Positions 4,504 to 56,555 of a DNA stretch of 64,000 bases are shown in pieces. Origin of the DNA: a virus. The notes below the pieces were generated by a model, which saw nothing but the letters and a program-made list of their open reading frames with translations, searched no databases and was not told the origin of the DNA. Every line of letters starts with the position of its first letter. Position 1 is the first letter of the stretch. The stretch is from positions 27,555-91,554 of IMG/VR virus record IMGVR_UViG_3300045284_000065; one strand, given 5' to 3'. The position numbers and the translations under genes are program-made.

Positions 4504-4504
4504 G

Positions 4505-24477: not shown

Positions 24478-25953
24478 TCACGGCCAGGGCGAGATGACGT
24501 TCTGAGTGCTGGGTGCTGCTGCCGTGAGGTACGGCAGGACAGTCGGGGTGGGGGACCAGGGCACCAGGGGCCGAGACTCGTTCCACATCGGGTCCTCCGG
24601 GTAGAGCACGTCGAGGTGGCCGTGGACCGGGATCCCAGCCGGGACCCACTGGTAGGCCAGCCCCTGCAGCGCCGCCTCGTCGTCGGTCAGCGGCGACGAG
24701 GCGTCGACCTTCCAGGCGAACAGCCGACCGAAGGTGGAGTTGCGGAGGTTGTACCAGCAGCTGTAGCTGGCGTGGCGGTTGGACGTGCCGCCGTACCAGC
24801 TGAAGTCCTCGCGCGCCCCGTACGTGGTGTCGCCGTCGAAGTAGGGCCAGTCGTTGCCGTTGTCGGGCAGGTTCCCCGGCTCCACGCACACCTGGTCGAT
24901 GTCGAAGACCCCGGTGGTCAGGGTGGCGTCATACGGCTCGTACTCCAGGCGCAGCATCCCCGACACCGCCTCGCCAGGATCGCGCATGGTGCGGATGTGG
25001 GTGAAGCCTGCGCCGATCAGCCACGACGGAGTCGTCTCACCGTCGCGCAGCGTCTCGTAGCCCCAGTTGGCCATTGACACCCGGTAGTCGTCGTCCCAGG
25101 TGATCAGGCCCAGCTTCAGGACACCAGCGCCGCGCACCTGCATCTGGATCGTCAGGCCTGGTTCGCGGCGACGGCGGTAGGTCAGCGGGAAGACGTTGCT
25201 CTCCAGGATCAGGGGGGTGCCTCCGGTGACACGACCGCAGTTGTTGCCCGCCCCCGGAGGGGGGTCACCGACGAGAGCGATCGACCCATTGGTGCGCCAG
25301 AAGTTCGTCGTCAACTCGAAGCTCGGGTTGGCGATCAGGTTGAGCCGCTGCGGGTAGATCCAGACGTGCTGGGTGCGCGCCGTCTCGAAGGGGATCGGCG
25401 TCCGCTCGATCAGCAGCGTGCCCTCGACAGCGTTGGGCATGGTCCCGGCGTCAGCACCGGCAGACACGTCATCCCAGTAGAACAGCACCCGCTTGTTCGA
25501 CAGGGTGGCGTCGACAGCCGGGACCACGCCATCGTTGGCGTGCATCAGGGGGTTGCCGAGGAACGTGCTGTCGGTGACGAACATCAGGTCGTCCAGCGAC
25601 GATGATCCCTTGTCGAGAGCGAAGCCGACTGCGGCCACTGGTGTCGTCGGCGTCCCCGGAGGGATCACGAAGCGGGAGGAGACGGCGATCTCGGCCACGT
25701 TGCGGGTCGTCCCGGCAGCCTTGGTGATCGTCACCGGCAGGGACGGACCCACGACGTAGGTGCTGCCCCAGCCCAGCATGTTCTTCAGCGTGTCGACCTT
25801 GTTGATACCGGCATATGCCGTAGTCGTCGGGAGGTTCTCGCCCTCGCCCGAGATCAGCGCCGGAGCCTGTGGAAACAGGTACAGCTGGACACTGGCCCCG
25901 GCCCACCCGGCCTTGAGAGTGGAGAGGAACTGCGAGGTGAAGTAGTAACTCAC
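24478..25953 (-). CDS. Tail-tip or fibre-associated structural protein
   Basis: 491 residues from GTG 25953 (GTGA overlap with the gene upstream). Residues 1-200 are beta-rich with no clear motif. From about residue 205 comes NLIANPSFELTTNFWRTNG, the usual opening of a carbohydrate-binding-module-like jelly roll in phage structural proteins, which ends near DIDQVCVEPGN. The C-terminal part is aromatic-rich (YSCWYNLRN). Probably a receptor-contact or sugar-binding subunit at the baseplate rim. It is the last gene of the structural unit. Confidence 0.72.
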   Translation of the reverse strand: MSYYFTSQFLSTLKAGWAGASVQLYLFPQAPALISGEGENLPTTTAYAGINKVDTLKNMLGWGSTYVVGPSLPVTITKAAGTTRNVAEIAVSSRFVIPPGTPTTPVAAVGFALDKGSSSLDDLMFVTDSTFLGNPLMHANDGVVPAVDATLSNKRVLFYWDDVSAGADAGTMPNAVEGTLLIERTPIPFETARTQHVWIYPQRLNLIANPSFELTTNFWRTNGSIALVGDPPPGAGNNCGRVTGGTPLILESNVFPLTYRRRREPGLTIQMQVRGAGVLKLGLITWDDDYRVSMANWGYETLRDGETTPSWLIGAGFTHIRTMRDPGEAVSGMLRLEYEPYDATLTTGVFDIDQVCVEPGNLPDNGNDWPYFDGDTTYGAREDFSWYGGTSNRHASYSCWYNLRNSTFGRLFAWKVDASSPLTDDEAALQGLAYQWVPAGIPVHGHLDVLYPEDPMWNESRPLVPWSPTPTVLPYLTAAAPSTQNVISPWP

Positions 25954-28900: not shown

Positions 28901-31900
28901 CCATGCGGAACATCTCGATGTTGGTGGCGTCGTTGTAGATCCTCAGGTTGGCGATGCGCCCACCGAACCAAGAGGTGTCACCCTCGGTCGCACCGATCCA
29001 GAACGGCCCGTTGCCCTGCACCAGACCCGAGGTGGGGTAGTTGGTCACGATCGGCTGGCCGATAGCGACCCAGCTGTCGCCGTAGTCGAGCGTCTCGAAG
29101 AGGCGCAGGCTCTGCTGATTGGGCACCGTCATGTCCACTGCCAGCCTGAGGTAGCGGTACTCCCCATTGACCGGGCCAGCGATGGGCCGGGTGGTCGAGG
29201 TGTATTCGATGGAGCCAGACGAGTTGGTCCAGGTGAACAGCAACTCACCGTTGGGCGACAGGCGCACCAGGTAGGAGTGGTTGTTGCCCGCCGACCAGCG
29301 TCCGAAGAGAGTCTGAGCCGGTCCCTCGGAGTGGGATGTCGGCGGGTCCTCCGAGTCCACTACCAGCTGACCGGTCCAGCGATCGGCGGCGAGTCGGATG
29401 TCGATGGTCATCGACCCGGCGATGGCAGGGAAGCCGCCAGCCGGGACGGTGGCGTAGTTGCCGAGGGTCCCGGGGAAGTAGAGGTAGCCGGGGTTGGGCG
29501 ATGTCTCGATGGCGGTCTGCGTCTTCACGATGGTGACGGTCTGACCGGTCACGGCCTTGAAGCTGGTCGCCGCTGGGTCGATGGCCAAGCAGGTCTGGTC
29601 GATCAGCAGCGCCTCAGTGTTCTGGATCGGCACGCCACCCGGATCGAACGAAGTGCGGAACGAGACGTTGCTGATCGCCCCGTCGAAGAAGTTGCCGATG
29701 ACCAGCGTCGCTATCGAAGCGAACATTGGACCGGAGGTGGGCGTCTCGGAGAGTCGGGTCCAGGTCCGGTTGTCATCGGAGGTCCAGAAGCGGACGTAGT
29801 TGCTGGTTCCGGCCTCGAAGGAGACGGCCACCCGCTTGGCTGCCTGGGCCTGCAGCCCCAGCGCCGGGGACTCCACGACGTTGTCGTAGTTGTTGCCGTT
29901 CGATGACCAGTAGAACAGCAGGGTCCCCCGGCTGGAGAGCAGGAAGGACCAGCCGACGAGGCCAGCGCTGCCCGACTTGGTCATGATCGCCCGGTTGCGC
30001 CGCGGCGGCGTCCAGTCGTTGGCGATCAGGCGGGCCTCCACCACGAACGAGGTGTTGTCCTGGAAGGCCGTCTCGTTGGGGACAGTGAGGAAGTTGCTCT
30101 CGGTCCCCGGCAGCACGATGTAGCCGAAGTCGACCGGGACGTAGTCACGCCGCACCGTCGCCGTGCCACCCTGCAGAGCGAGCGTGCCAGCCTGAGGGTT
30201 GGCCGGGATGTGCTCGGAGGCCAGGCGCAGCATCTCCAGGGAGGTCGACTGAGTCGACCCGTAGATGGACAGCCCGTAGAGACGCCCGTCGTACTGCGCC
30301 CCGATGACCAGTGGCGATGTCGAGTTGAAGACGGTGCCAGTCAGGCCACTCTGGCGCGTCCCCAGCGGTGCCCAGGTGACGCCGCTGTCGGGGGAGAGCC
30401 AGAAGTCCACGACCCGGACACCGCCGACGATGTCAGTGTCGATCCGCACCACCTGGCGGCTGGTGCTCGCTGGCACCGGCTGGGTGCAGGTCAGCGTGTA
30501 GAAGACCGTGCCGTCGATGGAGTAGAGGAACTGCAGACACCCGTTGATGTCCATCATCACGGCGTAGCCACGCTGGCCCGCCGCTGCCCACTTCGAGATG
30601 ATGGTCTGAGCGGTGTAGGGCAGCCAGGAGCGCGGGAGGATGCCGAAGACGAATGAGGTGGGGCCGGTGATCTCCAGGGTCGCAGCGTCGGCAATCACCA
30701 GGTCGTTGCCGAGCGTCCCGGGGAACAGGATGTAGCCGGTGCCCTTCGGTGCCGGGTTGCGGTAGACGGTGATGGCCTGGCCGGTCGCCGCTGTCAGAGC
30801 AGTGCTGGTCGATGTGACGGCGTTTCCCTGAGCGTCGTTGATGAAGTTGTCGGCGTTGAGGCCAAACACCTCGGTGCCCTCCACCGGCAGCGCTCCGGTC
30901 CCCGTGCGGATAGAGACATATCCAATGTCCCCGTCGATCGACGGCCCAGTGGGGACCGACCCCGAGGTCCAGCCCGAGCCGATCCGCAGCGGGTTAGTGC
31001 TGTTGCCGATCGCAGAAGCACCCACGGTGACGCTGAAGCTCGCCGTCCACGACGCTGCCGCAGGAGGGGTGAGGCTGTCGGTCAGCGAGTACCACACCTT
31101 GTGGTTCACCACCCCGGTGGGGTCGTAGAAGATGCTGTACCAGACCCACTGCTCGTTGGCGTCGATGGTGGTGCGGCTAGTAGCCCTGAAGTAGGAGGAG
31201 TCGTTGGGACCCCAGGAGAACAACAGGCCATATGGGCCAGTCACCACCCGATAGACCAACCCCTTGCCGACCGGGACGCTGAAGTGGTTGGGCACCGTGT
31301 CCCGCTGACGCATCCGCAGGATGATGTACATCGGCGTGATCACGTCGAGAGCGGTGGCGTCGGGCGTCTCCATGTAGTTGCCGGTCGTGCCGGGGAAGGT
31401 GGCGTACCCCTGCCCGATCGCCTTGGGCGTGCGGACGACGGTCACGACGGTGTTGACCGGCCCCACCGAGGGAGCGAATGACGTGGCATCGGGGACCACC
31501 CCAGCCAGGTCCTGATTCCCGTCGAAACGAATCGCCTCGACGCCGCTGTCCGCTTCGGACATGTAGTACACGCGCCCGACGAAGGGAGAGAGGCCGCTCG
31601 TCGTGTTGTTGCCGATGAGTACCTGGCCCGACTGGGTGAGCAGAGGGGTGGTCCCGGCATTGGCCCCGGTGACCGGGGTCCCCAGCTGGATCCAGGTGGC
31701 CTTCAGCGGGTCGATCTCGTTGTCGAAGGAGTACCAGTAGGTGCAGACCGCCGAGGAGATCACGACCTGGCCCCGGATCCAGATGTCCTTGTCGATGGCG
31801 ATGCCGGGGATATCAGCGTTGGCAGCGACGCCACCGATCGGTGCCACCGAGGTGTTGAGGACGCCGACAACAGGCCGGTTGGTGGACTGGATGCTGAGAT

Positions 31901-32090
31901 AGGCGTGGGTGCTGTTCCACCCGCAGATCGGTCGGTTCAGGCTGCTCAGAGCACTGAAGCGGACCCGCACGGTGAACTGGAGCGAAGTGGGTGGCGACGC
32001 CAGGTTGGCGCGATCGATCCTCGCGTAGTTGCCGACCTGACCTGGGAAGTACAGGTAGCCGGGAGCGTCGACAGGGAAGGCGAGAGGCAT
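25950..32090 (-). CDS. Giant gpI-like baseplate protein with six LamG-like domains
   Basis: 2046 residues. Six copies of a LamG/concanavalin-type domain, each opening with a variant of GYLYFPGTLGNYA, begin near residues 8, 230, 453, 656, 868 and 1100. A linker of PGPTT-type repeats (about 1400-1457) follows. The C-terminal part has a WYYYALFFRV segment and then LWNALPPYYRYLDDN and FGYQFDLTREYAES, characteristic of P2 gpI-type tail proteins that link baseplate to fibres. The last 250 residues are beta-rich. LamG domains bind sugars or proteins, so this looks like a wedge component fused to its own adhesin stack. Start ATG 32090 overlaps the gpJ-like stop. Confidence 0.82.
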   Translation of the reverse strand: MPLAFPVDAPGYLYFPGQVGNYARIDRANLASPPTSLQFTVRVRFSALSSLNRPICGWNSTHAYLSIQSTNRPVVGVLNTSVAPIGGVAANADIPGIAIDKDIWIRGQVVISSAVCTYWYSFDNEIDPLKATWIQLGTPVTGANAGTTPLLTQSGQVLIGNNTTSGLSPFVGRVYYMSEADSGVEAIRFDGNQDLAGVVPDATSFAPSVGPVNTVVTVVRTPKAIGQGYATFPGTTGNYMETPDATALDVITPMYIILRMRQRDTVPNHFSVPVGKGLVYRVVTGPYGLLFSWGPNDSSYFRATSRTTIDANEQWVWYSIFYDPTGVVNHKVWYSLTDSLTPPAAASWTASFSVTVGASAIGNSTNPLRIGSGWTSGSVPTGPSIDGDIGYVSIRTGTGALPVEGTEVFGLNADNFINDAQGNAVTSTSTALTAATGQAITVYRNPAPKGTGYILFPGTLGNDLVIADAATLEITGPTSFVFGILPRSWLPYTAQTIISKWAAAGQRGYAVMMDINGCLQFLYSIDGTVFYTLTCTQPVPASTSRQVVRIDTDIVGGVRVVDFWLSPDSGVTWAPLGTRQSGLTGTVFNSTSPLVIGAQYDGRLYGLSIYGSTQSTSLEMLRLASEHIPANPQAGTLALQGGTATVRRDYVPVDFGYIVLPGTESNFLTVPNETAFQDNTSFVVEARLIANDWTPPRRNRAIMTKSGSAGLVGWSFLLSSRGTLLFYWSSNGNNYDNVVESPALGLQAQAAKRVAVSFEAGTSNYVRFWTSDDNRTWTRLSETPTSGPMFASIATLVIGNFFDGAISNVSFRTSFDPGGVPIQNTEALLIDQTCLAIDPAATSFKAVTGQTVTIVKTQTAIETSPNPGYLYFPGTLGNYATVPAGGFPAIAGSMTIDIRLAADRWTGQLVVDSEDPPTSHSEGPAQTLFGRWSAGNNHSYLVRLSPNGELLFTWTNSSGSIEYTSTTRPIAGPVNGEYRYLRLAVDMTVPNQQSLRLFETLDYGDSWVAIGQPIVTNYPTSGLVQGNGPFWIGATEGDTSWFGGRIANLRIYNDATNIEMFRMDQESLRVPTATTVFNEQWGKTITLHQSSTPTISGYVSFDGVSGEYCRATVPNLSTVTSDFTLMVRVNFTGKLLTTEQVLVQKWNTTPASKVLNKQLTTNVATITTKDPHKLAVGNAVIVTGVGAPFDGTVTITTVPTTTTFTYAKINANVASTASTGDVTPLGRSFSLRRKGTEFSFHASSDGMTDDINAVLADVWDDDNVDWGWLAITTNYSTTDATVTFFTAPEALTPVGTPLVPLPTDWVAQGDPLVFENVTALYMDTEQVTFGGAEDGTLSMRGWLSNVSITNGIGANNVPGGTEKFGWNINSFAGIAADSGAFTAFTGENVVLEPVGASRTMKVQPSAPGPTSDLEPSLPGPTTTILPSPQGPTTTLVRGEDGPSTVLTPAPVGPVTELSPPSLNRPWWPGTETDDTSKWWDQPAFTVQRVIDTTVSGGDYVRGSTNARTQQTAIRYPTTLPGWTPAGVGKGTLYSQPINYDTIEIEWNVPEQFAISWETPSTLADITWSEVTIIRAAMGYPSTVNDGQAIMRQTKAQLYPTGYRYDATSHEILTPNQFDPHSPETSAATGLTPGRWYYYALFFRVGFDWVRSAIHCCLLPRNHHHAEHLWNALPPYYRYLDDNMRGGANDGDLKRWLQIFGYQFDLTREYAESSLDMYHTDFTPLSLLQRIGENFGVKYEPGLGDYSYRALVGTIGYLYRGRGTVGGMKSLVNAAAKCDCDVTSSPNVLLLPDDSEFMNGTGNWAGIHDLTYPKPTGSGIPASPLSYDRIGFSSGTYGYNPGPTSGKGMMHVYTGPADALADLLITCGDGKQTQIAPDPPLEILPFDVGTPCKPGDVYTFTISCASEFGVGSMQAFLFFFGDGGRPDDFISLAAALGAVTPTVGNWAPTSVSGTVPANGAYVVPAIAVVSRAAGSNTSRSPYVHFSGASLYYVGNSSQVTSDVFVKTLTLTGPAAGHPGGPTDTGAEKIGPLDPGVFDPFFIGEEQE
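28797..28808. repeat. Dispersed palindrome, copy ATATCCCGATAT
   Basis: Exact copy in the sixth LamG-like unit of the gpI-like gene; the other five units have no such site at this place, so it is not a product of the protein repeat. Confidence 0.7.
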
Positions 32091-34189
32091 CAGGTGTTCG
32101 CCAAGCCCCCGTCAGCGGTCACCCACAGGCCGTCGTGGATGAACTCGTCGTCGGTGTAGTAGGGCGGGTAGCTGGCCGACGACGCCGACTCGTCGTACTT
32201 GACCGGGTCGATGCGTGGGATGTGCAGGTCGTCCACGATGATGTCCCCCACCTCGCCCACCGTGACCGGCGTCGGGGAGTAGCGCACGAAGGTGAAGTCG
32301 ATCGAGGTGCTGGCGGCAGGCGTGGTGTTGGGCGACGACTTGCGGGCGATGACCACGTCCCAGTCGGCGTACCCCGGCGTTGACGGGACGCCGGTACCAC
32401 CGTGGAGAGTGGCGTTGGAGCGCACGACGTAGTCCCACCACGATCCGTTGGCCGGGTTGCTCAACACGATGTGGTCGCCCACGTCGACACGGCCCAGGTC
32501 CGCCGTGCGGTTGTCACTCCCGGCAGAGGGCGACGTGGTATCCCGATATGAAATGGCGATGTGCAGGAAGTCGGGGTCGGTCGAGGTCGTGTCGTCGTAG
32601 AGCCGGTAGAACGTGGCGGTCGGCTCGGGCGGGCTGGCCCCGGCCTCGAACTTCCACTGGCTGGTGAACATCGTCTCCACCGGCTGGGTGGGAGGCCCGA
32701 GCACCAGAGGGTCGACCACCACGGTGCCGCTCTCGGAGGGCGGGCGTGAGGTGGTCAGCCAGTTGACCTCGGCCCAGTCCACGCCCTGCACAGTGAGCAC
32801 GGCTCGGTAGACATCACCGAGGGTGATGCGGGTGCCGAAGTCGACCATGTCGAAGTCGAGCAGCGTGTGGAGCGTGGAGTCGACCTTGTTGCGAACGTCG
32901 AGACGGTTGAACACCTCGGCCACCTGGATGTTGATCCTGATGAAGACGTTGGTCCACAGGTCCATGCAGTGCAGCGGGCCAGCCACGACGGTGGAGCCGA
33001 TGAGGATCTTGTCCTGCATCGTCTGCTCGACAGAGGTACACAGCCGCTGCATCTGAGCATCGGTGCATTCGTCAGCGCTGGAGGACAGGGTCGGAGCGAC
33101 CCACACCTTGACGGCGGTGTACACCGTGCCATAGGCGACGCTCTTGGCCACTCCTGGCGTCTGCATCGCCAGGTCGGCGTAGTCGTTGAGGGTGACAGCG
33201 CGGCTGCGGATGCGGGCACCGGCCCGGGGGACCGAGAAGCGCATCGATGCCACCGACTCGGCATCGGCTCCACCAGAGGGAGAAGCCGGGTTGGACACCG
33301 TCACCTGCCATGCCTCGAAGAAGCCAGCAATCGGGACGATGGTGGAGATCATCTTGGCCGGGACATCATTGGCCGCTGCGCCGACGCCGTAGCGGTAGGT
33401 GGCGAACAGCTGGGCGTTAGCAGACGGGATCCGGCCCGACGTGTTGTCCCCGAAGCAGATGTGGGTGAAGCCCTGGTCGTCCAGGTAGGTGGTGAACACC
33501 GACTGGGTCGGGCGCGCCGTTGCCAGATCGGTGGTGTAGGTCCACACGACCTGCTGGTAGCCCTCGCTCGACACGATGCGGAGCGACCCGGCGATGATGC
33601 CCTTCTGCGGCAGGGTGAACTCGGTGTTGGCGATACCGAAGGCCACGCCGATCGGCGTGTCCCGCACTGTCACGCCCTCCTGGGCAAGCAGCGTGAACGG
33701 ATCGTCACCAGGGTGGAACGTCACTGCGTTGACAGTCTCGAAGACGATGGTGTCCCCGGCGTTATCCGAAGAGGAGTAGCACCGGGTGCCTGCTGGAATG
33801 GTGAGCGGGTCCTTGGGGTCGGTGGGATCGGGGGTGTAGGGGGTGATGGTCAGGTCCACCGATGCCGCCGCCTGTCCAGTCGGCTTGTAGCCGAGCATGT
33901 CGGCGATGTAGTACACCGACTGGGGCCGAATGGCAGTGGCGAGGAATGACTCACTGGCCGTGCGGTCGATGTAGAAGTTGAGGATGTCACCGAGGTAGGC
34001 GAACAGTTCCAGGATCACCGTGCCGAAGTCGGAGGACTCCCCGGCCGTCGTCCACTCGGGCATGATCGTGTTGGCGAGACGGACCAACTCGGCCCGGAGC
34101 GACGTGAAGTCACGACTGGTGTAGTCGAGGATCAGCTTGTTCTTGAGGCCTTCGTCGTCCAGTGAGACGAGCACGCCGATGTCAGACAC
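32090..34189 (-). CDS. Baseplate J-like (gpJ/gp6-type) wedge protein
   Basis: 699 residues. N terminus: LDYTSRDFTSLRAELVRLAN followed by ESSDFGTVILELFAYLGDILNFYIDR, the typical opening of baseplate J proteins in contractile tails. The middle has AGARIRSRAVTLNDYADLAMQTPGVAK, another family hallmark. The C-terminal 200 residues are an extension not found in short gpJ. It forms the iris-like ring of the baseplate wedge. The gp25-like gene precedes it by eight bases and the gpI-like gene overlaps its stop. Confidence 0.88.
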   Translation of the reverse strand: MSDIGVLVSLDDEGLKNKLILDYTSRDFTSLRAELVRLANTIMPEWTTAGESSDFGTVILELFAYLGDILNFYIDRTASESFLATAIRPQSVYYIADMLGYKPTGQAAASVDLTITPYTPDPTDPKDPLTIPAGTRCYSSSDNAGDTIVFETVNAVTFHPGDDPFTLLAQEGVTVRDTPIGVAFGIANTEFTLPQKGIIAGSLRIVSSEGYQQVVWTYTTDLATARPTQSVFTTYLDDQGFTHICFGDNTSGRIPSANAQLFATYRYGVGAAANDVPAKMISTIVPIAGFFEAWQVTVSNPASPSGGADAESVASMRFSVPRAGARIRSRAVTLNDYADLAMQTPGVAKSVAYGTVYTAVKVWVAPTLSSSADECTDAQMQRLCTSVEQTMQDKILIGSTVVAGPLHCMDLWTNVFIRINIQVAEVFNRLDVRNKVDSTLHTLLDFDMVDFGTRITLGDVYRAVLTVQGVDWAEVNWLTTSRPPSESGTVVVDPLVLGPPTQPVETMFTSQWKFEAGASPPEPTATFYRLYDDTTSTDPDFLHIAISYRDTTSPSAGSDNRTADLGRVDVGDHIVLSNPANGSWWDYVVRSNATLHGGTGVPSTPGYADWDVVIARKSSPNTTPAASTSIDFTFVRYSPTPVTVGEVGDIIVDDLHIPRIDPVKYDESASSASYPPYYTDDEFIHDGLWVTADGGLANT

Positions 34190-42459: not shown

Positions 42460-44868
42460 TTAGCTGAAGGCCTGGACTTCGTTGGTGAACTGGCTGCTGG
42501 TGATCTGCGTGATCTTGATCACCACGAACTCGGCGGGGTACTCCAGCGCCACGCCGATCTCCATCCGCACCTCGCCCGACGAGATGACGTTGATGGTGTT
42601 GATCGTTGAGTCACACCGGATGTAATACGCCTGGTTGGGCGAGGTGCCCCGCAGGCCTCCGCGCTCCCACAGGGGCCGGAGGATGTTGTCGGCCGTGATG
42701 CGGAGGCTGGACCACAGGCGCTCATCGTTGTTCTCGAAGATGGCGTACTGGGTCGAGCGACGCAGCTGCTCCTTGATGTTGATCAGGGTGCGGCGAGCCG
42801 AGATGTAGTGGTCCGGGCCGTAGCTCTTGCGAGTACGAGCGCCCATGACGCAGATGCCCGCCCCGACCACCGGCCGGATGATGTTGACATCGGCGTGGTT
42901 GAGGTCGCCCAGTTCGGTGTCGGTGAACTTGGCCTGCACGCCCACGGCGTTGGTCAGCGTGGCGATCACACCAGCCGGTGCCCGGTGGAACCCGATGGTG
43001 GCATCGATGCGGGCCATGACGCCCATCACCGCCCCACCGGACGGGATCGGGATGACCGCCCCGACCTGGGTCGGGTGGGGGATCAGGATCCACGGCCCGT
43101 AGCTCGCCGTGTAGGAGGTCTGGTCGTAGATCAGATCGTTCTTCATCTCCACGGCGTAGCTGGAGGTCGCGTAGCTCACCGTGTAGTCCTTGGCCTGGGC
43201 GAAGTCGTTGAAGACCATCACGTCTTCCCGGTCGCTGAAGCTCGACGGGGAGAAGTTCGCCCCGACGAGGACCGACCCACCATCGTTCAACTCACCCGGA
43301 CGATCGCGGAACGTCTCGTCAGCGAGGTAGGAGGCGATGTTGATGACGAGCGGTCCTTCGACCCCACCGAGGTTCATCGGCGCTGTCTGGAGGTCCGAGG
43401 CGGTCGGCCAATCCGGGTCGTCGCCACCGGCCAGGAGCACCTGAGTGAGCTTCTCGACGGGCTGCTCGACGTTGAGGTTGAGGTTGGTGATCCGCACGAA
43501 GCGGGACCCGCCGAGGGAGTCGTTGATGGCCGAGTCGACCCGGCGCGTCCCGGCAAGTTCGCCGCGCACCGAGAGGCCCTGGAACCGCTCCAGCGTCTCG
43601 TAGTTGATCCCATCAGGCTGCAGCTGAAGGATCTCCAGCGAGAAGTTCCTCGGCTCGTTGACGTTGACCCCGAGGCGATAGGCGATCTTGTTGCCCCAGT
43701 CGCCAGCGCTGATGGCGTTGATCCTGAAGGCCGTCAGAGGGGTGGTCGCCCCATCGGTGACGCTCACCTTCGCCGTGGCCCCGTAGGTGCCCGCCGTCTC
43801 GGCCTTGGCCGCTCGCACGATCCAGGCGAAGCGCCCACCGTTCTGGAAGAACGAGTACACGCTGAAGGGCAGGTACGACAGGGCCTTGGGCGCTGCCGTG
43901 GTGACCACGGTGCCGGGGAACTGCCCCGAGGCCCACACCCCGTTGTTGGCACCGATCGTGCCCGACTGCGGACCAGGGGTCCACGCCGTGCCCGACCAGC
44001 TGAAGGCCCAGGGACCGATCCAGATGACCTGGCCCGAGGTCCACGCTGTCGCTGGTACGGCGACGTAGCCCTCACCGGACACACCGGGGACGGTCGTGGC
44101 GACAGTGATGCCAGGCGTGGTGCCGGTCAGGCTGGCGACGTTGACGACGATGGGGCTGACATCTCCGTAGAGGCCACCGCCGTAGGTCACCGTGAACGCC
44201 GTCGTGGCGATCGGGCCACCGGCCACCGTGATGGAGTTGCCGGGGATGGCCGTGTCGATCGCCGCCTTGACCTGCGCGGCGGTGGCGTCCCAGGCGATGT
44301 TGGCCGTGGTCACCCCAAGCGTCGTCAAGGTCCAGGTGCCACCCGAGATGGTGCCCGACTTGGTGAGGGTCTGCACCTCGTTGACCGAGAGCAGCTTGGC
44401 GGCGTTGGTGGCGTCGCTGGCCGTGATGTCGGGGTCGGCGGCAAAGGCCTGACCCGGAGCAGCAGCCTGCCGGTTGGTCGCCAAGGCCGGGAGGTTGTAG
44501 TACGCCTTCGAGTTGTCGCCCAAGCGGACGTACTCACCCGGAGTGTTGAAGTTCGGCGGGCCGACGAACTTGCCGTTGCCCTTGGTGGCGTGCGCCTGCA
44601 GGGTGGTGAAGTTGGTCGGAGCGCCCGAGGGGAACGCGCTCCCGGTGAGGTCGAAGGGATCGGTCCCGGCCGGGGCCGGGATGGCATCGAACCCGCCGAA
44701 GACCGTGAAGTAGTCGCTCCACGATTCGACGAGAAGGGGGGTGTTGACCGGCCCCTTGGGGGCCAGTCCGACGAAGGCGGCAACCGTGGTGGTTCCGGCA
44801 ACGTCGGAGGGGTTCAGGAGGAGAGACTCCTCCAGGTAGACGCCTGGACGGCGGTAGGTGCTGGGCAT
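42460..44868 (-). CDS. Contractile tail sheath protein
   Basis: 802 residues from ATG 44868, with AGAGGAG upstream. The N terminus, TYRRPGVYLEES then FVGLAPKGPVNTPLLVESW, is the universal sheath opening. The C-terminal part has YAIFENNDERLWSSLR and the final handshake strands IGVALEYPAEFVVIKITQ. Between residues about 150 and 300 sits a long beta-rich insertion, so it is much longer than T4-like minimal sheaths. Contraction drives injection. A large antisense frame here is shadow. Confidence 0.94.
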   Translation of the reverse strand: MPSTYRRPGVYLEESLLLNPSDVAGTTTVAAFVGLAPKGPVNTPLLVESWSDYFTVFGGFDAIPAPAGTDPFDLTGSAFPSGAPTNFTTLQAHATKGNGKFVGPPNFNTPGEYVRLGDNSKAYYNLPALATNRQAAAPGQAFAADPDITASDATNAAKLLSVNEVQTLTKSGTISGGTWTLTTLGVTTANIAWDATAAQVKAAIDTAIPGNSITVAGGPIATTAFTVTYGGGLYGDVSPIVVNVASLTGTTPGITVATTVPGVSGEGYVAVPATAWTSGQVIWIGPWAFSWSGTAWTPGPQSGTIGANNGVWASGQFPGTVVTTAAPKALSYLPFSVYSFFQNGGRFAWIVRAAKAETAGTYGATAKVSVTDGATTPLTAFRINAISAGDWGNKIAYRLGVNVNEPRNFSLEILQLQPDGINYETLERFQGLSVRGELAGTRRVDSAINDSLGGSRFVRITNLNLNVEQPVEKLTQVLLAGGDDPDWPTASDLQTAPMNLGGVEGPLVINIASYLADETFRDRPGELNDGGSVLVGANFSPSSFSDREDVMVFNDFAQAKDYTVSYATSSYAVEMKNDLIYDQTSYTASYGPWILIPHPTQVGAVIPIPSGGAVMGVMARIDATIGFHRAPAGVIATLTNAVGVQAKFTDTELGDLNHADVNIIRPVVGAGICVMGARTRKSYGPDHYISARRTLINIKEQLRRSTQYAIFENNDERLWSSLRITADNILRPLWERGGLRGTSPNQAYYIRCDSTINTINVISSGEVRMEIGVALEYPAEFVVIKITQITSSQFTNEVQAFS

Positions 44869-44934
44869 TGTCGCTCCTCTGTTGTGACGTGATGACAACG
44901 AGTGCGACGACGTGTGCTACGGGTCTGATGACTG

Positions 44935-46224: not shown

Positions 46225-48063
46225 TCAGGCAGCGGACTCCAAGGCCTCGACGCGCCCGATGATCTCCAGGAGGGTGGCGATGGTCAGCGTGATCGTCTTG
46301 GAGTAGTCGAGCATCTGGTGCTTGGGCGAGCCAGGAGCGACACCAGCGGCCTCGGCCTCTTCGGCCGAGTACACCTCGTCGGGCTGGCCGTCGACCGCCT
46401 CGGGCACGATGTTCATCACCTCGTCAGCGATCAGGGCATCAGTCTCACCGCGGTCGGAGTCGTTGTTCCACGTCACCCGGTACGGCTGGAAGGCCTTGAA
46501 CCGAGCCACCGCACCGAGGATCGGGGACACGATCGTCTTGGCCCGACGATCGGAGGTCTCGTTGAACTTGACCCCGGTGGTGCCGTTCTGAGTGATCGAA
46601 CCGATCGGCGTGGCTCCATAGGCGAACTGGGCGAACATCTGACCGCTGGTAGAGGCGCTACCGATGTGGCGGCAGTAGAGGTTCTGGATGCTGGCTGCCG
46701 AGGTCGTGGTGCGGATCGAACCTTCAGCACCGGAACCAGCGCCGTACATCTCGATCCCAGCGTTGTTGAGGTCCGCTGCTGCCTTGCCCCAAATGAAGGC
46801 GTTGCTCAACATCATGCCCTGGAAGACGCCGTTCGGGGAGAAGTTGATCTGGCCACCGGCACCGGTCTGGAAGGTGATGTCGCCCGCCCCCGTAGTGAGC
46901 AGCCGAAGCAACCCGGTGCTGAGAGCATTGCTAACCCGCAACTCGGTGGTGCCGTTGAAGCCCACATACCCGGCGTTCCCTGTCGGAGCAGCCGTCGTAC
47001 CGCTCCCGTAGAACCCCATGTAGCAGTTGTTGCCGCCAGCCGTGGTGTCGATCAGGACGACCTGCCCACCGTTGCCCCCGGCACGAATCTGAACGCCCGA
47101 GTAGATGTAGCTGTTGACGGCGGCGGTACCCGAAGCAGTGAGGTTGCCGGTGATGTCGACACCCAGGTTGTCGACGTGAAGCTTCTCAGCGTTGGCAACG
47201 AAGAACCGGTGGACCGACGTGGTCAACTCGGCGGCGTAGTTCATGTATCCCGGCATTCCCTGGATGTATCCAAACCGGGTGCTGCCCACCACCGGGTTGA
47301 ACTGAATGAAGGGAGCGTCACCGCCACGGGTGAAGTACAGAGGGCCGGTCATCGTGTCGCCAGCGACGGCCACGCGCGCACCATCGCCAGCGGCGATCTG
47401 CGCGTCGACATAGTCCTTGCGAGCGGCGGCGTTGGCCGTGGTGTCCTGGGCCGCAGTGCAGAGGAACCGGGTCGCCTGCATGCTCCCTGCCGCCGAGACC
47501 ATGGAGGAGAACGCTGCCGTCCCGACCACCTTGAGGTTGCCTGCCGACAGGGTCAGCACGTCGGCACCGGCCGCACCGTTGAGGGTCAACGACGGGGCCA
47601 GGATCGGGGAGTCCGAGATGAGGTTGGCAGGAGAGGTCGTCAGCTTGGCCGTGCGGTTGCCACCGCCCGCAGCGGTGAAGACCGACACCGTGTCGGCCTG
47701 GAACCCGGCCGAGGTGACGAAGTCGATCGAGGAGCGCAGCTTGGTGTTGGAGAACACCAACCCGGCACCGCTCGCGCTGATGTGAGCGAACGTCGCCGTA
47801 CCTGTCGCCCCGGTACCCGAGGAGACGAGACGCACCAAGCGCGACGACAGCAGGGGGATCCACTCCCCTGACCACACGCTGACGGTGTCGGTGGACTGCA
47901 CGTAGACGGCCTGCCCAGTCTGCGGGTTGGCAGGACGCGAGGCGTCGTCGGCATATCGCAATATGCCGCGGTACTGAAGAAAGTCACCGTCCTCCTTGCG
48001 CCAGTTGTGGGTCCAGTTGATCCACCCTGCCGGGCCATAGGTGGTGGGGAGCGGTTCAGCCAT
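46225..48063 (-). CDS. Fibre or spike with C-terminal S74 chaperone domain
   Basis: 612 residues from ATG 48063, with AGGAGG upstream. A beta-rich body of serine/threonine/alanine-rich repeats leads to a C-terminal intramolecular chaperone: KFNETSDRRAKTIVSPI (near 506), ALIADEVMNIVPEAV, and a helical end KTITLTIATLLEIIGRVEAL. S74 domains trimerise fibres and cut themselves off at the serine of the SDRR box. It is placed between neck genes, an unusual site for a fibre. Confidence 0.85.
   Translation of the reverse strand: MAEPLPTTYGPAGWINWTHNWRKEDGDFLQYRGILRYADDASRPANPQTGQAVYVQSTDTVSVWSGEWIPLLSSRLVRLVSSGTGATGTATFAHISASGAGLVFSNTKLRSSIDFVTSAGFQADTVSVFTAAGGGNRTAKLTTSPANLISDSPILAPSLTLNGAAGADVLTLSAGNLKVVGTAAFSSMVSAAGSMQATRFLCTAAQDTTANAAARKDYVDAQIAAGDGARVAVAGDTMTGPLYFTRGGDAPFIQFNPVVGSTRFGYIQGMPGYMNYAAELTTSVHRFFVANAEKLHVDNLGVDITGNLTASGTAAVNSYIYSGVQIRAGGNGGQVVLIDTTAGGNNCYMGFYGSGTTAAPTGNAGYVGFNGTTELRVSNALSTGLLRLLTTGAGDITFQTGAGGQINFSPNGVFQGMMLSNAFIWGKAAADLNNAGIEMYGAGSGAEGSIRTTTSAASIQNLYCRHIGSASTSGQMFAQFAYGATPIGSITQNGTTGVKFNETSDRRAKTIVSPILGAVARFKAFQPYRVTWNNDSDRGETDALIADEVMNIVPEAVDGQPDEVYSAEEAEAAGVAPGSPKHQMLDYSKTITLTIATLLEIIGRVEALESAA
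47953..47964. repeat. Dispersed palindrome, copy ATATCGCAATAT
   Basis: Exact spacing, near the 5' end of the S74 fibre gene. Confidence 0.65.
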
Positions 48064-50166: not shown

Positions 50167-53100
50167 TCATGGCCAGACCTGGACTGCTCCGACGTAGACC
50201 CGGTCCACCGCCCGATCACCGAGGAAGATGGCGTCGGCGTAGTTGAGGACGATCGCCGTCTCCTCCCTGATGCCGGGGGAACCGGCAGTGTGAGCGTGGA
50301 ACGCTGCCTCCAGGATCAGCGTGATGCTAAAGACGAGAGTGATGATCTCGGCGGTGTGGGCATGGAAGGCCGAGTCGATGGCGAGGTTGTGAATCTGCGT
50401 GTACGCAACATCAGAAGCGGTCTGAGCGTGAACAGCGTCGGCAACGACGAGCATCGGGACGGCGTAGAGGACGACGTTGCCAGCGCTGTGGGCGAGCAGC
50501 CCGTCCGCCGCTGTGATGACGTGGACCTGGGTGATGGCCGGTACTTCGGCCGACTGCAAGTGGGCGCTGTCGGCAACGAGCAGCGTGGATCCACCGGCCA
50601 GCGAGATGGTCGTGGCGACAGAGGCGTGGAGTGCGCTGTCCATCGCCAGGTTGTGGATCTGACCCAGGTCGGGGCTGGCGACGGTGGAGGCGTGTACCGC
50701 ATCAGCCACCGTCAGGTTGTGGACCTGGAACAGCGCCAGGTTGTCGGTGACGGCGTGCGCTGCGTCCTGCACCACCACGTTGTTGGCGAGGGTGAAGGTG
50801 ACGTTGTCAGCAACGGAGGCGTGCTGGGCGGCACCGACCACCAACGCCGGGGTGATGATTGTGTTATCAGCAGCGTGGGCGTGGACAGCGTCCTGGGTGG
50901 CCAGGTTGTAGCTGTTGGTGACGGTGTCGGCTACGGAGGCATGGACAGCGCCCTGTACGCCGTCCATGTTGATGTTGAGCGGGCCGACGTTGTCAGTGAC
51001 CTGGTTGTGGAGGGCGCTCTGGATGGCCAGGTCGCCCTGCATCTGCAAGGTGACGTTGTCGGTGATCTGAGCGTGGCTGGCACCCTGCACCACCAGATCG
51101 ACAACGAGCAGGACATCGGGTGACGTGACAGCGTGCGCTGTGCCCTGGACAGCCGGATCGACACCGAGGATCGGAGCTTGCGCCACGGAGGCGTGGGCTG
51201 CATCGGCAGCGGCGAGAACGACGTAGTTGAGGACCACTCCGTCAGCGGCGGAAGCATGCGTGCTGCCCTGGGGGTAGAGGTCAACAGCGAGGAGGGCGTT
51301 GTCGGCTACGGCGTGAACAGCCGCTGCGACCACCAGCATCGGGACGGCGTAGAGCGTCGGAGCGTCGGCAGCGTGAGCGTGTGTCGCACCCTGAGCGACG
51401 ACGACGTTCTCCACGACCACGTTGTCTGCAAGGGGCAGGTGACCTGCTGCCTGGACGACGAGGTCAACGCCGAGGGAGACGTTGTCGGTGGCGTGGGCAT
51501 GCAGCGCATCAGCGACGGTGAGAGAGGCACCGAGGCCGACGTTGTCCGAGAGAGTGGCGTGAATGGCGTCAGCGGGAGCCAGGACGACGTAGTTGAGGGT
51601 GACGCTGTCGGCAATGGGAGCGTGTATCGCTGCCTGAGCGGCAAGGTCTACGACGAGGAACGGGCTGGCTGCGGTGGGGGCATGGAGTGCGTCGGCAGGA
51701 GCCAGCACCACGTAGTTGAGTACGGCGTTATCGGTGACAGCGTGAGCGGCGCTACCTACGACAAGATCGACACCGAGCGCCACGTTTGCGGCGGTATGGG
51801 CATGCGCTGCGTCCTGGACGACGAGGTTGGTGCTGGGGACGAAGAGGACGACGTTGTCAGCGACAGGAGCGTGAGTGGCGCTCTGGACAACGAGATCGAC
51901 CACCAGCGGGACATCGATGATGCCGCCAGCAGGAGGGACGGGCGCGTCGAGGAGGTGGGTCGCCACCGGACCCGAGACGATGGCTCCCTGCTCCCACCAG
52001 ATCCACTTCTGATCGTTGAGCGGATCGTTGTCCGGGGCGTAGAACATCCCGTTCCGCATCGAGTAATGCAGGAAGAGGTTGGCCGTGCGCTGCACGGCGT
52101 ACGTCGTCATCTCGGCTTCAAGCTGGGCCTGGGTCAGCGCCGCTGTCCAGCACTTGAAGGCGCAGCCCATCGAGTAGGGGTTGCTGCCGTACTCACCGGA
52201 CAGCACACGCAGCTTCAGGCCGGTGATCGTGCCCTTGCTGGCGTTGTGGACCGTGGAGAGGGTCGATGTCCCCTGCGGTGCCCAGTAGAGATCAGTGCCC
52301 CCGGTGATCGACCGGGACATGGCGAGGAAGACCCAGGTGTTGAGCGGGACGGTGTAGCCAGCGGAGAAGTCTCCGGTGTCCATGTACTGACGGATCGAAC
52401 CATCGGGGGCAACCGATGTGCTGCAGTAGGTGCTGCCGCCACTGAACAGCGACCACACGTCGGTGGAGATGGCGCACCGACCCTCGTACCGCACCCAGCC
52501 GCACCACGACAGGTCGGTGTCGCTGGGGAAGGCGTTGCTGTTGCCGTTGAGCGCGATGGCCTTGCCGTTGGACAGCATCCGCATGGAGCCATCCGTCACC
52601 GGCAGCGGGGGCGAGGCGAGATCTACAACGGTGAGGTCATCAACGATGGTCGGCGGGGAGCCGTAGGAACGGAAGCCGATTGCGCCACCGACGATGGGAG
52701 CACCCTGGGTGTCGGTCTGTGGTGAAGAATCAGTGGCGTCGATCTGCCAGGTGCCAGGTTCGGCCGAGCCGTCGTTCCACCACTTGACCTTGTGGCTGGT
52801 GCCGACCACACGGACCTTCCACCAGCGCACGCCCGCAGCGTTGAGTGACGCATCGGTGAAGTTGCCGATGCTGGTGTACGCACCCACCTTGTAGAGATCG
52901 ACACGCCCAGCGGGCGCTACCTGAGCGACGTAGCCCGACGATGCGGCGTAGCCGCCCAGCCCGTCGTACAGACGCCAGCAGATCTCCGGGTAGTTGGGGT
53001 TGGCTGTTTGCCACTCCACCTTCACCGTCATCTCGAAATCGGTGACGTACTTATCGGAGGACGCCACAGAGGGTCCACCGGACGGTGTGACAATGCCCTT

Positions 53101-56040
53101 GTTGCCCGAGATGGTGTAGTAGGGGCGCTGGACCGGCCACTTGGCCCAGTCCCAGTGATCCTGGTCAGGAACGTTCCAGTCCTCGGAGAAGAGGTAGGGA
53201 GATACCGCCCCGCCCGTGCCGTACCCAGATATGACAGCGTGAGTGGCGTTGGCGACGACGAGGGTGGTCGAGGAGATCTGGGTGAGGACGACGTTGTCGG
53301 ATACGGGGGTATGGGTCGCCGCCTGTACGACAAGGAGCACTTCGATAGCGGCATTTGCTGCCGTGGAGGCGTGAGCAGCCCCCTGAACGACGAGATCGAC
53401 ACCGAGAGCGACAGTGGCAGCCGTGGGAGCGTGGACCGCTCCCTGAACAGCGAGGGTGGTGACGATGACCTGGGTGAGGACCGTGTTGTCAGCGGCGTGA
53501 GCGTGCGCTGCGCTCTGGACAACGAGAGTGGGGACCACCGTCTCGGTGAGAACGAGTGGGGTGCCTGCGACGACGATGCCAGCAGGGTCGGTCAGCGTCC
53601 AGGTACGACCCCTGGCATCGACCCAGGATGTGCCGCTGACATACTCGCTGGCATCGAACCGCCACAACAGCGTGCCCGCCGCTGGGTCGCTCCCTGTACG
53701 CATCTCCAGCCAGTAGATGCGCCCTGCGAAGGTGTTGCCAGTAGGTGTCCACCCGTTGGCCGAGCCAATGATCACACTCTCGGGGCTGTCATAGGCAGGC
53801 TCCGAGCCGCCCCAGGTGTACCCGTTGATGTAGGTCCACGAAGCGCCGTCATCAGTGGACCGGTATCCCCAATACCCCAGCGCTATCTGACTGGCACCGA
53901 TAGCAAACACCTCAGGGCTGCCAGTCGGCGGTGCTCCGTTAGAAACGCCCATCGACCAGCCTGGTAGGGCGTTCCCATTCGAAACGAAGGCGTAGTTCGT
54001 GTAGATGTCGCCATCGGTGGTAATCGACGGGTCGATGGCTTCGCTGCTTCTGGAGAGATACCAGCCCTGGTTACCGCCGCTGTCGTTCCCCTGGCTAGCA
54101 ATAGTGGTAGAGGTGCCGTACTGAGTGATGTTCGTCGGTCCCGAGATCTTGAACCGCCAAGTCCACTCGTTCGGTAGAGGCCCAGGGTCAGAGGTCTTCA
54201 CCACAGCGATCTGCGGGTCGTAGTACACCCCTCCCGGCCCCGTTGACGTAGTGGCGTGAGTGGCGTTGTCAACGACAAGATCTATCGGTGGTGGACCGGT
54301 GACCGCCTTGATCGTCGGCGTGACCGAGTAGGTCAGATCGGCCGCACCGTTGCGGAGCACCCGGAACGTGAGGGTGTCGTTGTTGACGAGGTTGGCCGAC
54401 TTCAACGTGAGGGCGAACAACAACTCGGTGTAGTTGTTGGCGCTCCACCCGACGCCCTCTTGCAGCCCCGTCATCGACTGGGTTCCTGCCACGAAGGAAC
54501 CGGTCCCACCGCTCAACCGTTGGCTCGTCGGCTGTCCCTCACACAGCGCTGACTCACCGCCACCGTTGTAGATGGTGGGGACATAGTGCCCGACGACAGT
54601 GGTCGGAGGTGTCGCTGGCACCGTGTACACACGGGTCATGTAGTCGTAGGTGGCCTGGGCCGTCCACGTCGTGCCGTTGTAGTCGCACCGGTTACCGGCT
54701 CGGCTAGGAGGAGAGGTGAAGTCAACGACCATCTCGACGCAGTTCGACGCATCACCGGCATTGGTGGCGACGATCGCCATGACGTAGTTGGTGCCGTTGA
54801 CCAACGTGAACGTGCCGTCGAAGTCGAAGAAGACCCACCCGAAGTAGCCGGACAACGTCGCTGGAGTGAGCACCGTTGTCGATGTCGCCAGCGCTGCGCC
54901 CGTGCCGACACTGCTCGTCCCGAACGTCCCCGAGTGGGCGTAGAGGACAGCGGTGTAGGTGCCAGGAGGCGTGCCCAGCCTGTGGATGTCGAAGGCCATC
55001 CTCGACAACTTCTCGCCGTTGCCCGTAAAGGACTGCCCGGAGCGAACGTCGGTCTTGACCCAACTGTCGTACTGGGAGAACGGCCAGGTGGTGAGCAGGG
55101 CCGGGTTAGAACCGACATCAGTCCACGCCCCAGCGTTCTTGGCGTATTGGAGCTTGAAGTCGGTGGTCTTAAGGACGGCGTCGGCCCCCGCCTGCAACCG
55201 CACCCGCAGTTGCACGTTGGCGTCACTGACGACGCTGACCGAAGGCGTGGTGTCCTGCGCTGCGAGAGCAACGCTGGTGGTCTCGCTGCCCTCTGCGAAG
55301 ACCTGAGATGCCGCTTGTGTGATAGCAGGAGGCGGCAAGGCCCGGAAGACGACGACCAGGCTCACCCACTCGGCGGCGACGGTGGTGATGTTGTAGGTCT
55401 GCTGCCCCGCAGCGGTGACGATCTTGTACTGACCGACAGCACTGACGCTGGTGGCGTCCTGGCCGCTGGTGCCACCACCGGCCCGAGTGACCTGCGCTGA
55501 CCACGAACCGTTGAGGGTGTCGGAGTCAGCGGTGGGCACCGTTCGTGTCTCGGTGGCGCAAGCGCCGAGGACGAGAGCGCCGACAGGAATGGCCTGGGCA
55601 GTAGCGGTCGCTACGGACGCTGCCGTCGTGGCACCGAGAGCAGAAGCGGCATCGAAGCCGAAGCCCGAGTCGGTGTCAACGCCTGTGAACACCTCGGCAT
55701 AGGCCGCTTTGCCGACAGCCGCAGGGGAGAGGGTGACCGTGATCGTGCCGCCTGTAGCCACAGCGGCGGTCGCTACCCTCGTCAGAATCGCCCCAGCGAC
55801 ACCAGAGCCTGCGGTGGACGTTCCGTTGACGTTGGCTATCTGGTTGGTGTAGGTGTTGCCGCCCGAGTCAGCACAGGTGAACGTCGGGGCTGTGGCGCTG
55901 GTGTTGTCAGCGGCGACTCGGACGACGACGAAGTCCCCGATGGCGATCGGGTTCGTCGTCGTGATGACAAGCGTGGTGCCTGAGACGTTGTTGGCGTTGT
56001 TGCCCAGCGCCGACTTGAAGGCGACCGGCCCCGCCGCCAT
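50167..56040 (-). CDS. Giant repeat fibre with about 26 tandem 22-residue repeats and LamG-like domain
   Basis: 1957 residues. Residues 1-250: Ig-like beta-rich domain (TFTCADSGGNTYTNQIANV region). Around 837-943 a short array, and from about 1377 to 1930 a long array, of repeats with the core A-x-HA-x-x-ADNV-x-L (for example VQDAAHAHTAANVALG); I count about 26 in the long block and five or six in or near the short one. A LamG/concanavalin-type domain lies at about 1157-1333 (WVRYEGRCAISTDVW). A short unique end, DRAVDRVYVGAVQVWP, closes it. Such alanine/histidine repeats suggest a long thin fibre stalk. Likely an adhesin; exact fold unknown. Confidence 0.82.
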   Translation of the reverse strand: MAAGPVAFKSALGNNANNVSGTTLVITTTNPIAIGDFVVVRVAADNTSATAPTFTCADSGGNTYTNQIANVNGTSTAGSGVAGAILTRVATAAVATGGTITVTLSPAAVGKAAYAEVFTGVDTDSGFGFDAASALGATTAASVATATAQAIPVGALVLGACATETRTVPTADSDTLNGSWSAQVTRAGGGTSGQDATSVSAVGQYKIVTAAGQQTYNITTVAAEWVSLVVVFRALPPPAITQAASQVFAEGSETTSVALAAQDTTPSVSVVSDANVQLRVRLQAGADAVLKTTDFKLQYAKNAGAWTDVGSNPALLTTWPFSQYDSWVKTDVRSGQSFTGNGEKLSRMAFDIHRLGTPPGTYTAVLYAHSGTFGTSSVGTGAALATSTTVLTPATLSGYFGWVFFDFDGTFTLVNGTNYVMAIVATNAGDASNCVEMVVDFTSPPSRAGNRCDYNGTTWTAQATYDYMTRVYTVPATPPTTVVGHYVPTIYNGGGESALCEGQPTSQRLSGGTGSFVAGTQSMTGLQEGVGWSANNYTELLFALTLKSANLVNNDTLTFRVLRNGAADLTYSVTPTIKAVTGPPPIDLVVDNATHATTSTGPGGVYYDPQIAVVKTSDPGPLPNEWTWRFKISGPTNITQYGTSTTIASQGNDSGGNQGWYLSRSSEAIDPSITTDGDIYTNYAFVSNGNALPGWSMGVSNGAPPTGSPEVFAIGASQIALGYWGYRSTDDGASWTYINGYTWGGSEPAYDSPESVIIGSANGWTPTGNTFAGRIYWLEMRTGSDPAAGTLLWRFDASEYVSGTSWVDARGRTWTLTDPAGIVVAGTPLVLTETVVPTLVVQSAAHAHAADNTVLTQVIVTTLAVQGAVHAPTAATVALGVDLVVQGAAHASTAANAAIEVLLVVQAATHTPVSDNVVLTQISSTTLVVANATHAVISGYGTGGAVSPYLFSEDWNVPDQDHWDWAKWPVQRPYYTISGNKGIVTPSGGPSVASSDKYVTDFEMTVKVEWQTANPNYPEICWRLYDGLGGYAASSGYVAQVAPAGRVDLYKVGAYTSIGNFTDASLNAAGVRWWKVRVVGTSHKVKWWNDGSAEPGTWQIDATDSSPQTDTQGAPIVGGAIGFRSYGSPPTIVDDLTVVDLASPPLPVTDGSMRMLSNGKAIALNGNSNAFPSDTDLSWCGWVRYEGRCAISTDVWSLFSGGSTYCSTSVAPDGSIRQYMDTGDFSAGYTVPLNTWVFLAMSRSITGGTDLYWAPQGTSTLSTVHNASKGTITGLKLRVLSGEYGSNPYSMGCAFKCWTAALTQAQLEAEMTTYAVQRTANLFLHYSMRNGMFYAPDNDPLNDQKWIWWEQGAIVSGPVATHLLDAPVPPAGGIIDVPLVVDLVVQSATHAPVADNVVLFVPSTNLVVQDAAHAHTAANVALGVDLVVGSAAHAVTDNAVLNYVVLAPADALHAPTAASPFLVVDLAAQAAIHAPIADSVTLNYVVLAPADAIHATLSDNVGLGASLTVADALHAHATDNVSLGVDLVVQAAGHLPLADNVVVENVVVAQGATHAHAADAPTLYAVPMLVVAAAVHAVADNALLAVDLYPQGSTHASAADGVVLNYVVLAAADAAHASVAQAPILGVDPAVQGTAHAVTSPDVLLVVDLVVQGASHAQITDNVTLQMQGDLAIQSALHNQVTDNVGPLNINMDGVQGAVHASVADTVTNSYNLATQDAVHAHAADNTIITPALVVGAAQHASVADNVTFTLANNVVVQDAAHAVTDNLALFQVHNLTVADAVHASTVASPDLGQIHNLAMDSALHASVATTISLAGGSTLLVADSAHLQSAEVPAITQVHVITAADGLLAHSAGNVVLYAVPMLVVADAVHAQTASDVAYTQIHNLAIDSAFHAHTAEIITLVFSITLILEAAFHAHTAGSPGIREETAIVLNYADAIFLGDRAVDRVYVGAVQVWP

Positions 56041-56046
56041 CAGGCG

Positions 56047-56166
56047 CTACTCGTCGTCGGTGAAGTCGGAGTCAGCGCCGATGACGCCGTCCTGAACCTC
56101 CAGAGTGATGGCACCGGCCTCTTCTTCCTTCTCGCCCTCGTCAGGCGTATCAGGCTCGTCGCTCAC
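56047..56166 (-). CDS. 39-residue acidic protein
   Basis: Found by reading the gap 56041-56162. GTG 56166 overlaps the upstream stop as GTGA, and TAG at 56047 is six bases before the giant fibre start. The sequence begins MSDEPDTPDEGEKEEEAG and stays acidic. Translational coupling supports it. It may be a tiny structural or chaperone peptide; function unknown. Confidence 0.55.
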   Translation of the reverse strand: MSDEPDTPDEGEKEEEAGAITLEVQDGVIGADSDFTDDE

Positions 56167-56555
56167 GTCGGGTCAGCGATCTCGACCTTCCAGGCCGGGA
56201 CGTTGACCGTGTTGGAGGCGGTCAGCGCCTGGCTGGTGCAGGTCGTGACATAGAGGCCGTTGGTGCCGTTGTCCAGGTAGATGTGGGTGGCGGTGCCCGA
56301 CGCCGAGATGCTGATACCGGAGAGGGCGTTGATCGTCACCTTGCGCCCGCTGGTGTCGCCATCGACAGGGCCGGTGAAGCTGCCAGCGGTCAGCCCGGTC
56401 TGTTGGGCGAGCTTGATCGCGTCGATCTGCGCCGCAGTGGGTGGCGTCGCCGTCCCGGAGTTCGCATGCTGTGCTGATGTCACAGTCAGGCGGGTGGCTC
56501 CCTTGATGGCGGCGAGCGCTGCGTCGAGCACAGCGTTCTCTGCGAACTTGGCCAT
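56163..56555 (-). CDS. Small head/tail structural protein
   Basis: 130 residues with GGAGAC upstream of ATG 56555. The N-terminal helix MAKFAENAVLDAALAAIKGA leads to an HANSGTATPPTAAQID loop and a beta-rich C-terminal half. The organisation resembles minor virion proteins near fibre genes. Function unknown. Confidence 0.62.
   Translation of the reverse strand: MAKFAENAVLDAALAAIKGATRLTVTSAQHANSGTATPPTAAQIDAIKLAQQTGLTAGSFTGPVDGDTSGRKVTINALSGISISASGTATHIYLDNGTNGLYVTTCTSQALTASNTVNVPAWKVEIADPT

Follow-up and report, generated by a model that had tools for sequence, protein, structure and literature searches.

The window, a stretch of 64,000 nucleotides from a virus, encodes on its minus strand a fibre-like structural protein that carries two histidine-anchored repeat arrays, a lone repeat unit, two globular modules and a C-terminal tag (Table 1). 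An earlier note, made from the sequence alone, had assigned the fibre to the interval 50167-53550; the arrays lie where it put them, but the gene itself reaches further 5', to 56040. The same note had reported about 26 tandem copies of the repeat and a second short array near 53210-53530, and unit counting agrees on both points, with 26 units at the place proposed for the main array and five in the short one.

Table 1. Features of the array gene and its surroundings in the window (labels such as L010 denote other contigs)
Feature	Position	Strand	Basis or remark
Array-carrying fibre-like structural gene, 1957 aa	50167..56040	minus	open frame, ATG start
Main array, 26 units of 19-24 aa (aa ~1381-1927), consensus VDLVVQDAxHAxTADNVxLx	50260..51900	minus	unit listing, shuffles
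Short array, 5 units (aa ~837-945)	53206..53532	minus	unit listing
Lone unit (His at aa 595), immediately ahead of the first globular module	54223..54285	minus	
First globular module, from lone unit to short array; lectin-like by eye only	53530..54243	minus	
Second globular module (aa 942-1372), between short and main arrays	51925..53217	minus	
C-terminal tag LNYADAIFLGDRAVDRVYVGAVQVWP	50170..50259	minus	common to L010, L011, L012 and L082
Tail sheath protein (contractile tail)	42460..44898	minus	PHROG tail sheath, E-value: 1.7e-39; Pfam Phage_sheath_1C
Tail fibre, C-terminal end matching tail fibre families	46225..48063	minus	PHROG tail fiber, E-value: 2.4e-24
Baseplate J-like protein	32090-34189		
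130-aa protein, homologue encoded just after the Mae-JY22 array gene	56163..56555	minus	BLASTP, 41% identity, E-value: 5e-24

The first globular module has no Pfam match at E<=1, and segments similar to it are present in L010 and L011. For the second, Pfam has no match and PDB no significant one. The C-terminal tag shows weak matches (E-values: 0.2-6) to the ends of minor tail proteins of mycobacteriophages and other actinophages. Its last residues are VYVGAVQVWP, and the resemblance may hint, weakly, at an actinobacterial host.

Two other long genes on the minus strand of the window have repetitive products. Positions 1-4665 hold a fibre-like gene with 37-residue repeats of the type LTNKT...FNTAL.D.DFATLAGTET, which show as a 111-base repeat in the DNA at 2536-2807; towards its C-terminal end there are also separate HNH/HSH motifs. 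The 2046-aa product of positions 25950-32090 has jelly-roll/LamG-like segments, about five in tandem (Laminin_G_3 is matched weakly, E-value: 0.007), and after them a tail-protein-like region.

Repeat unit and selection

The units were listed by anchoring each on its conserved histidine, which is present in 30 of the 31 array units (26 + 5), in line with the one fixed place per unit that had been proposed. The string A-x-H-A is found 25 times in the protein, whereas 2000 composition-preserving shuffles gave 1.1 on average and never more than 5. The fuller motif of the earlier note, A-x-HA-x-x-ADNV, holds as a consensus but not as a fixed string, the complete A-x-HA-x-x-ADN occurring only four times. 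Spacing in the window protein ranges from 19 to 24 residues and is most often 20 (12 spacings of 20, eight of 22 and four of 21), so that a unit length of "about 22" is a slight overestimate here, although the relatives do keep to 22 as a rule (409 spacings of 22, 36 of 24 and eight of 20, with odd values rare).

The conserved columns of the unit alternate (L-7, V-5; A-2, H0, H+2, A+4; V+7, L+9, Q+11, H+13), and there are two short turns per unit, at AD and at DN. This alternation suggests that the histidine pair lies on one face of one strand. The prevalence of spacings of 22, 24 and 20 in the relatives indicates that strand alternation is kept.

Tandem Repeats Finder, run on the DNA, detects no array at the repeat region. 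Identity between units is 0.54, 0.55 and 0.426 (about 0.43) at codon positions 1, 2 and 3, respectively, and the third-position value matches that of random synonymous codon choice (0.411, range 0.37-0.46). Compared with the closest orthologous block, that of L011 (144 colinear codons), dN/dS is approximately 0.28 (dN ~0.26, dS ~0.90). The randomised third codon positions, taken with this dN/dS, show that selection acts on the protein, which confirms what had been read from the degenerate DNA repeats.

Repeat family and exchange of its array

Neither the gene nor its array matches a family in Pfam, PHROGs or NCBIfam. The array has no match among PDB sequences, and a profile built from 27 arrays also has none at E<=10. 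When the relatives are searched against the same three family libraries, matches are confined to non-array domains or are weak and below the cut-off; caspase and PWWP Pfam matches inside the relatives' arrays are of the latter kind and were rejected. In a literature search, HAHTADN appears in no paper.

Degenerate-codon scans locate family arrays of up to 27 units in about 50 contigs of environmental phages in IMG/VR. Among 50,697 phage records, the family is carried only by one isolate, Microcystis phage Mae-JY22, one further match being insignificant. The Mae-JY22 protein (XAI95683, hypothetical protein, 225 aa) is HAH-rich and belongs to the repeat family of the window protein, but is nearly a stand-alone array without large globular modules. 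Bacterial or prophage copies were also considered: 84,980 bacterial and archaeal genomes gave 16 pattern matches, all isolated and none arrayed, and these were discarded.

The window protein has tandem L-x-V-x-x-A-x-H-A-x-x-A-D-N-V-x-L units of 20-24 residues, and hhalign aligns the units of the window and L011 with those of the other contigs (probability 98.4, E-value: 9e-15). By sequence comparison, the protein is a diverged member or branch of the HADN/HxH family, which is a real phage virion-fibre repeat family; none of the libraries and papers searched describes it. The N-terminal domains ahead of the relatives' arrays vary (e.g. DNRLRE/CBM96 in L014). In L009, L033, L069, L074, L088 and L090, the C-terminus of the array protein carries a second short repeat of approximately 10 residues after the array, such as SRVLIVRGENRVLIVAREQRVLIVAREQRVL. 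The array genes of L061, L054, L025, L074, L058 and L009 are located in the head/connector module, which is unexpected for a tail fibre.

A second histidine, forming HxH in most units, is common but not universal in the family. In the 559 units from outside the window, L011 and L012, the first histidine is present in 99% and the second in 92%, although the anchoring of units on histidine biases the first figure upward (this bias was reduced by adding skipped units according to the spacing). HxH is present in 540 of the 637 units scored in the wider family, and the first histidine is missing in only eight. Some of the search patterns required HxH, but an additional scan without a requirement for the second histidine still found HxH in 67 of the 80 units of newly found contigs. 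The window protein departs from this trait, with HxH in only 7 of its 31 array units. When it is taken together with L011 (51 units), the first histidine is kept in 98% and the second in 27%, the replacements being Q, S, P and V. L090 is also HxH-poor (2/9 units).

The closest partial relative of the window gene is in L010 (IMGVR_UViG_3300018073_000013). Positions 2825-4115 of the window coding sequence, which correspond to the second globular module, share 86.9% DNA identity (blastn) and 86% protein identity with L010, and the last 74 bases, which belong to the C-terminal tag, share 79.7% DNA identity. In L010, both positions of the histidine arrays are occupied by a threonine repeat of approximately 21 residues (KELALSIPIAGTTTLTxD type), which has no match in the 50,697 phage records. 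The threonine repeat and a C-terminal tag of the same kind recur in L082, while L011 and L012 retain the histidine repeat around partly different modules. The threonine repeat lies at 7539-13517 in L010 and at 2040-4127 in L082. Homology between the two repeats, suggested by a possible A-x-T-x-T alignment, was rejected, as hhalign gave a probability of 0.1, no better than permuted controls.

As the module and tag are conserved in L010 and the flanking arrays are replaced, the array behaves as an exchangeable stalk. The evidence for stalk exchange is clear: judged from these alignments, the array is swapped as a block for an unrelated threonine repeat. The earlier note had foreseen neither this exchange nor the head-connector site of the gene in relatives.

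Proposed stalk and its place on the virion

The explanation proposed for the array protein is the following. We infer that the gene product is a fibre exposed on the virion surface and that the array is its stalk. Short beta-strand units would be linked into this stalk, which would keep the globular modules apart and present them, probably for binding to the host surface, and the length of the stalk would change by gain or loss of whole units. Each unit would follow the pattern L/V-x-L-x-Q-x-H-x-L-x-V, AD turn, A-x-H-x-H-x-A, DN turn, with both histidines on one face of a strand and most likely inside the stalk. In complete HxH units, the simplest mechanism would be that of T4 gp37 and R-pyocin, in which three chains would assemble and six histidines per level would hold a metal ion. 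The window lineage, which mostly has the first histidine alone, would have a stalk held together chiefly by hydrogen bonds and packing, and at most approximately 7 of its levels would bind metal.

The stalk reading is favoured by the 31 array units with their 30 anchor histidines, by purifying selection, by block exchange in L010 and by virion-gene neighbours. It is weakened by the low confidence of the structure predictions discussed below (pLDDT 40 and 59), by the lack of a sequence relation to solved fibres, by the presence of HxH in 7 of 31 units and by modules that match no known binding domain. That the array protein is a surface-fibre stalk is, on balance, probable. For the whole explanation, from a surface fibre with a beta-strand stalk displaying globular modules to the trimer and metal mechanism in HxH units, the case is evenly poised.

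The protein might instead be a head or neck appendage rather than a tail fibre, attached in most relatives near the portal and head connector (e.g. as a whisker or head fibre). The array genes of the relatives more often adjoin portal, terminase, head-tail adaptor, head closure and head morphogenesis genes; in L061 the array gene lies between portal and head morphogenesis, and in Mae-JY22 it lies near a head morphogenesis gene. However, the window gene lies in the tail module, near the sheath and tail fibre genes, the C-terminal tag weakly resembles minor tail proteins of actinophages, and the site of attachment does not follow from gene position. A head or neck appendage is a reading that we doubt but take seriously. 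The tail-module site in the window and the head-connector site in relatives show the repeat to be a general virion part with no single position.

Fold and histidine sites of the array

The earlier note had suggested a beta-solenoid or a novel stalk. Structures were predicted with single-chain AlphaFold2, and both predictions are strand-rich, at low confidence, which agrees with the suggestion in general terms only. The window array reaches a pLDDT of 40, and its model was left out of the fold search. The array of L063, a consensus-type relative, gives a regular solenoid-like model with three strands per unit (pLDDT 59). In a Foldseek search with this model, no PDB match is significant (best E-value: 0.015, TM 0.33-0.40), and those that rank highest are for the most part enzymes with a beta-helix and the tailspikes of P22, HK620 and Sf6. 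Poxvirus matches were rejected as chance matches of repeats, as they combine a low E-value with a TM of approximately 0.14. The only reasonable viral match, A0A8S5T8B9 (TM 0.61, 25% identity), may be another member of the HADN/HxH family. AlphaFold2 has been documented to predict spurious beta-solenoids from repeat sequences (PMC11795689). Given the low pLDDT, this bias and the absence of a significant structure match, neither a solenoid nor another stalk is established.

The array could be a single-chain right-handed parallel beta-helix, in which the unit of approximately 22 residues would be a three-strand rung, with an Asn ladder at ADN, a stacked His ladder and no need for metal. Proteins with this fold typically show Asn ladders and a rung length near 22 residues. 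The regular three-strand rung of the L063 model and the identity of the top Foldseek matches also point to it, but the model reaches only pLDDT 59 and PDB matches no better than those given above, AlphaFold2 is prone to false solenoids on repeats, and the window array itself is at pLDDT 40. The P22, HK620 and Sf6 tailspikes are similar to the array in having approximately 22 residues per repeat and an Asn at the turn, in addition to the weak Foldseek resemblance of a low-confidence model. They differ in that their rungs are irregular in sequence and form part of enzymes, and the fold match is not significant. A beta-helix of this kind is unlikely, and if the array protein is a surface-fibre stalk, a metal-free beta-helix would likewise be an improbable form for it.

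In the T4 gp37 and R-pyocin shafts and in P2-type spikes, octahedral iron is bound on the three-fold axis via HxH, with six histidines from three chains binding one iron (PMC6116203); T4 gp37 has seven iron ions (PMC11705849). The array is like the T4 gp37 tip, the R1/R2 pyocin fibre shaft and the P2/phi92 spike in having HxH, small flanking residues and beta strands, the last predicted here at low confidence. In contrast to these proteins, the relatives are built from a tandem unit of strictly 22 residues, in which HxH recurs up to 27 times. The window lineage departs from the T4 gp37 and pyocin shafts in another respect, the second histidine having been lost from most of its units. No homology to solved metal shafts is detectable by sequence (27-array profile against PDB, E<=10). 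Repeated HxH is strong in relatives and sparse in the window, and its position on a strand is taken from low-confidence models.

The tail-fibre repeats of Alteromonas phage R22Y gp12 have HxH copies 22 residues apart (HxHxIxDIxGLxxxL type; PMC11705849), and this spacing within a phage fibre is shared by the relatives. Identity with the R22Y type was rejected: the gp12 sequence is HTHSIEDINGLRSEID-like, against LxVxDAxHAHTADNxxL here, and the D-I-x-G-L signature is absent from the unit table.

By analogy with the T4 gp37 and pyocin shafts, HxH metal sites in the family are plausible. The row of histidine metal sites envisaged in the earlier note is in keeping with the wider family, which has the iron-binding motif of gp37 and pyocin, but the window protein has it in so few units that a continuous metal row there is unlikely. 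Were the array a surface-fibre stalk, metal binding by HxH in the HxH-rich relatives would be a tentative proposal, somewhat on the unlikely side. A fuller version, a new fibre architecture in which HxH-rich members have one HxH per level on a trimeric stalk with 10-27 metal ions in a row, and so would be metal-hardened and metal-carrying spacers, block-exchangeable with the threonine repeat and present on both head-connector and tail fibres, is distinctly unlikely.

A metal-loaded fibre, in which nearly every unit of the HxH-rich relatives would hold iron or a similar ion on the three-fold axis (tens per fibre) and the window protein would be partly decayed, is also improbable. It is consistent with the frequencies of both histidines in the 559 units and with the small Ala residues that flank them in register, and gp37 and pyocin shafts use HxH to coordinate Fe octahedrally (PMC6116203). 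On the other hand, it is without homology to known metal shafts, and the replacements at the second position in the window and L011 include residues unable to bind metal. The first histidine stays at 98% despite this loss, which argues that it has a role beyond HxH chelation. The array could also be a low-complexity linker, rich in Ala and Val, that is flexible and has little defined structure, which would suit the low AlphaFold2 confidence and a composition rich in A, V and L. An unstructured linker would not, however, be expected to have fixed columns of His, Leu and Ala, to keep almost exactly to a 22-residue spacing in distant phages or to show a dN/dS of ~0.28, and this reading is very unlikely.

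Phage fibre stalks set the reach of binding domains, and many of them are without a family name or structure. If the HxH units of the stalk proposed here bind metal, fibres built from them would rank with the most metal-rich ones suggested for any phage, and this would bear on the idea of phages carrying iron in their tails. The window protein and its L010 relative, two related fibres with one globular module in common and different stalks, constitute a natural experiment. This pair makes it testable whether the sequence of a stalk is important or only its length and stiffness.
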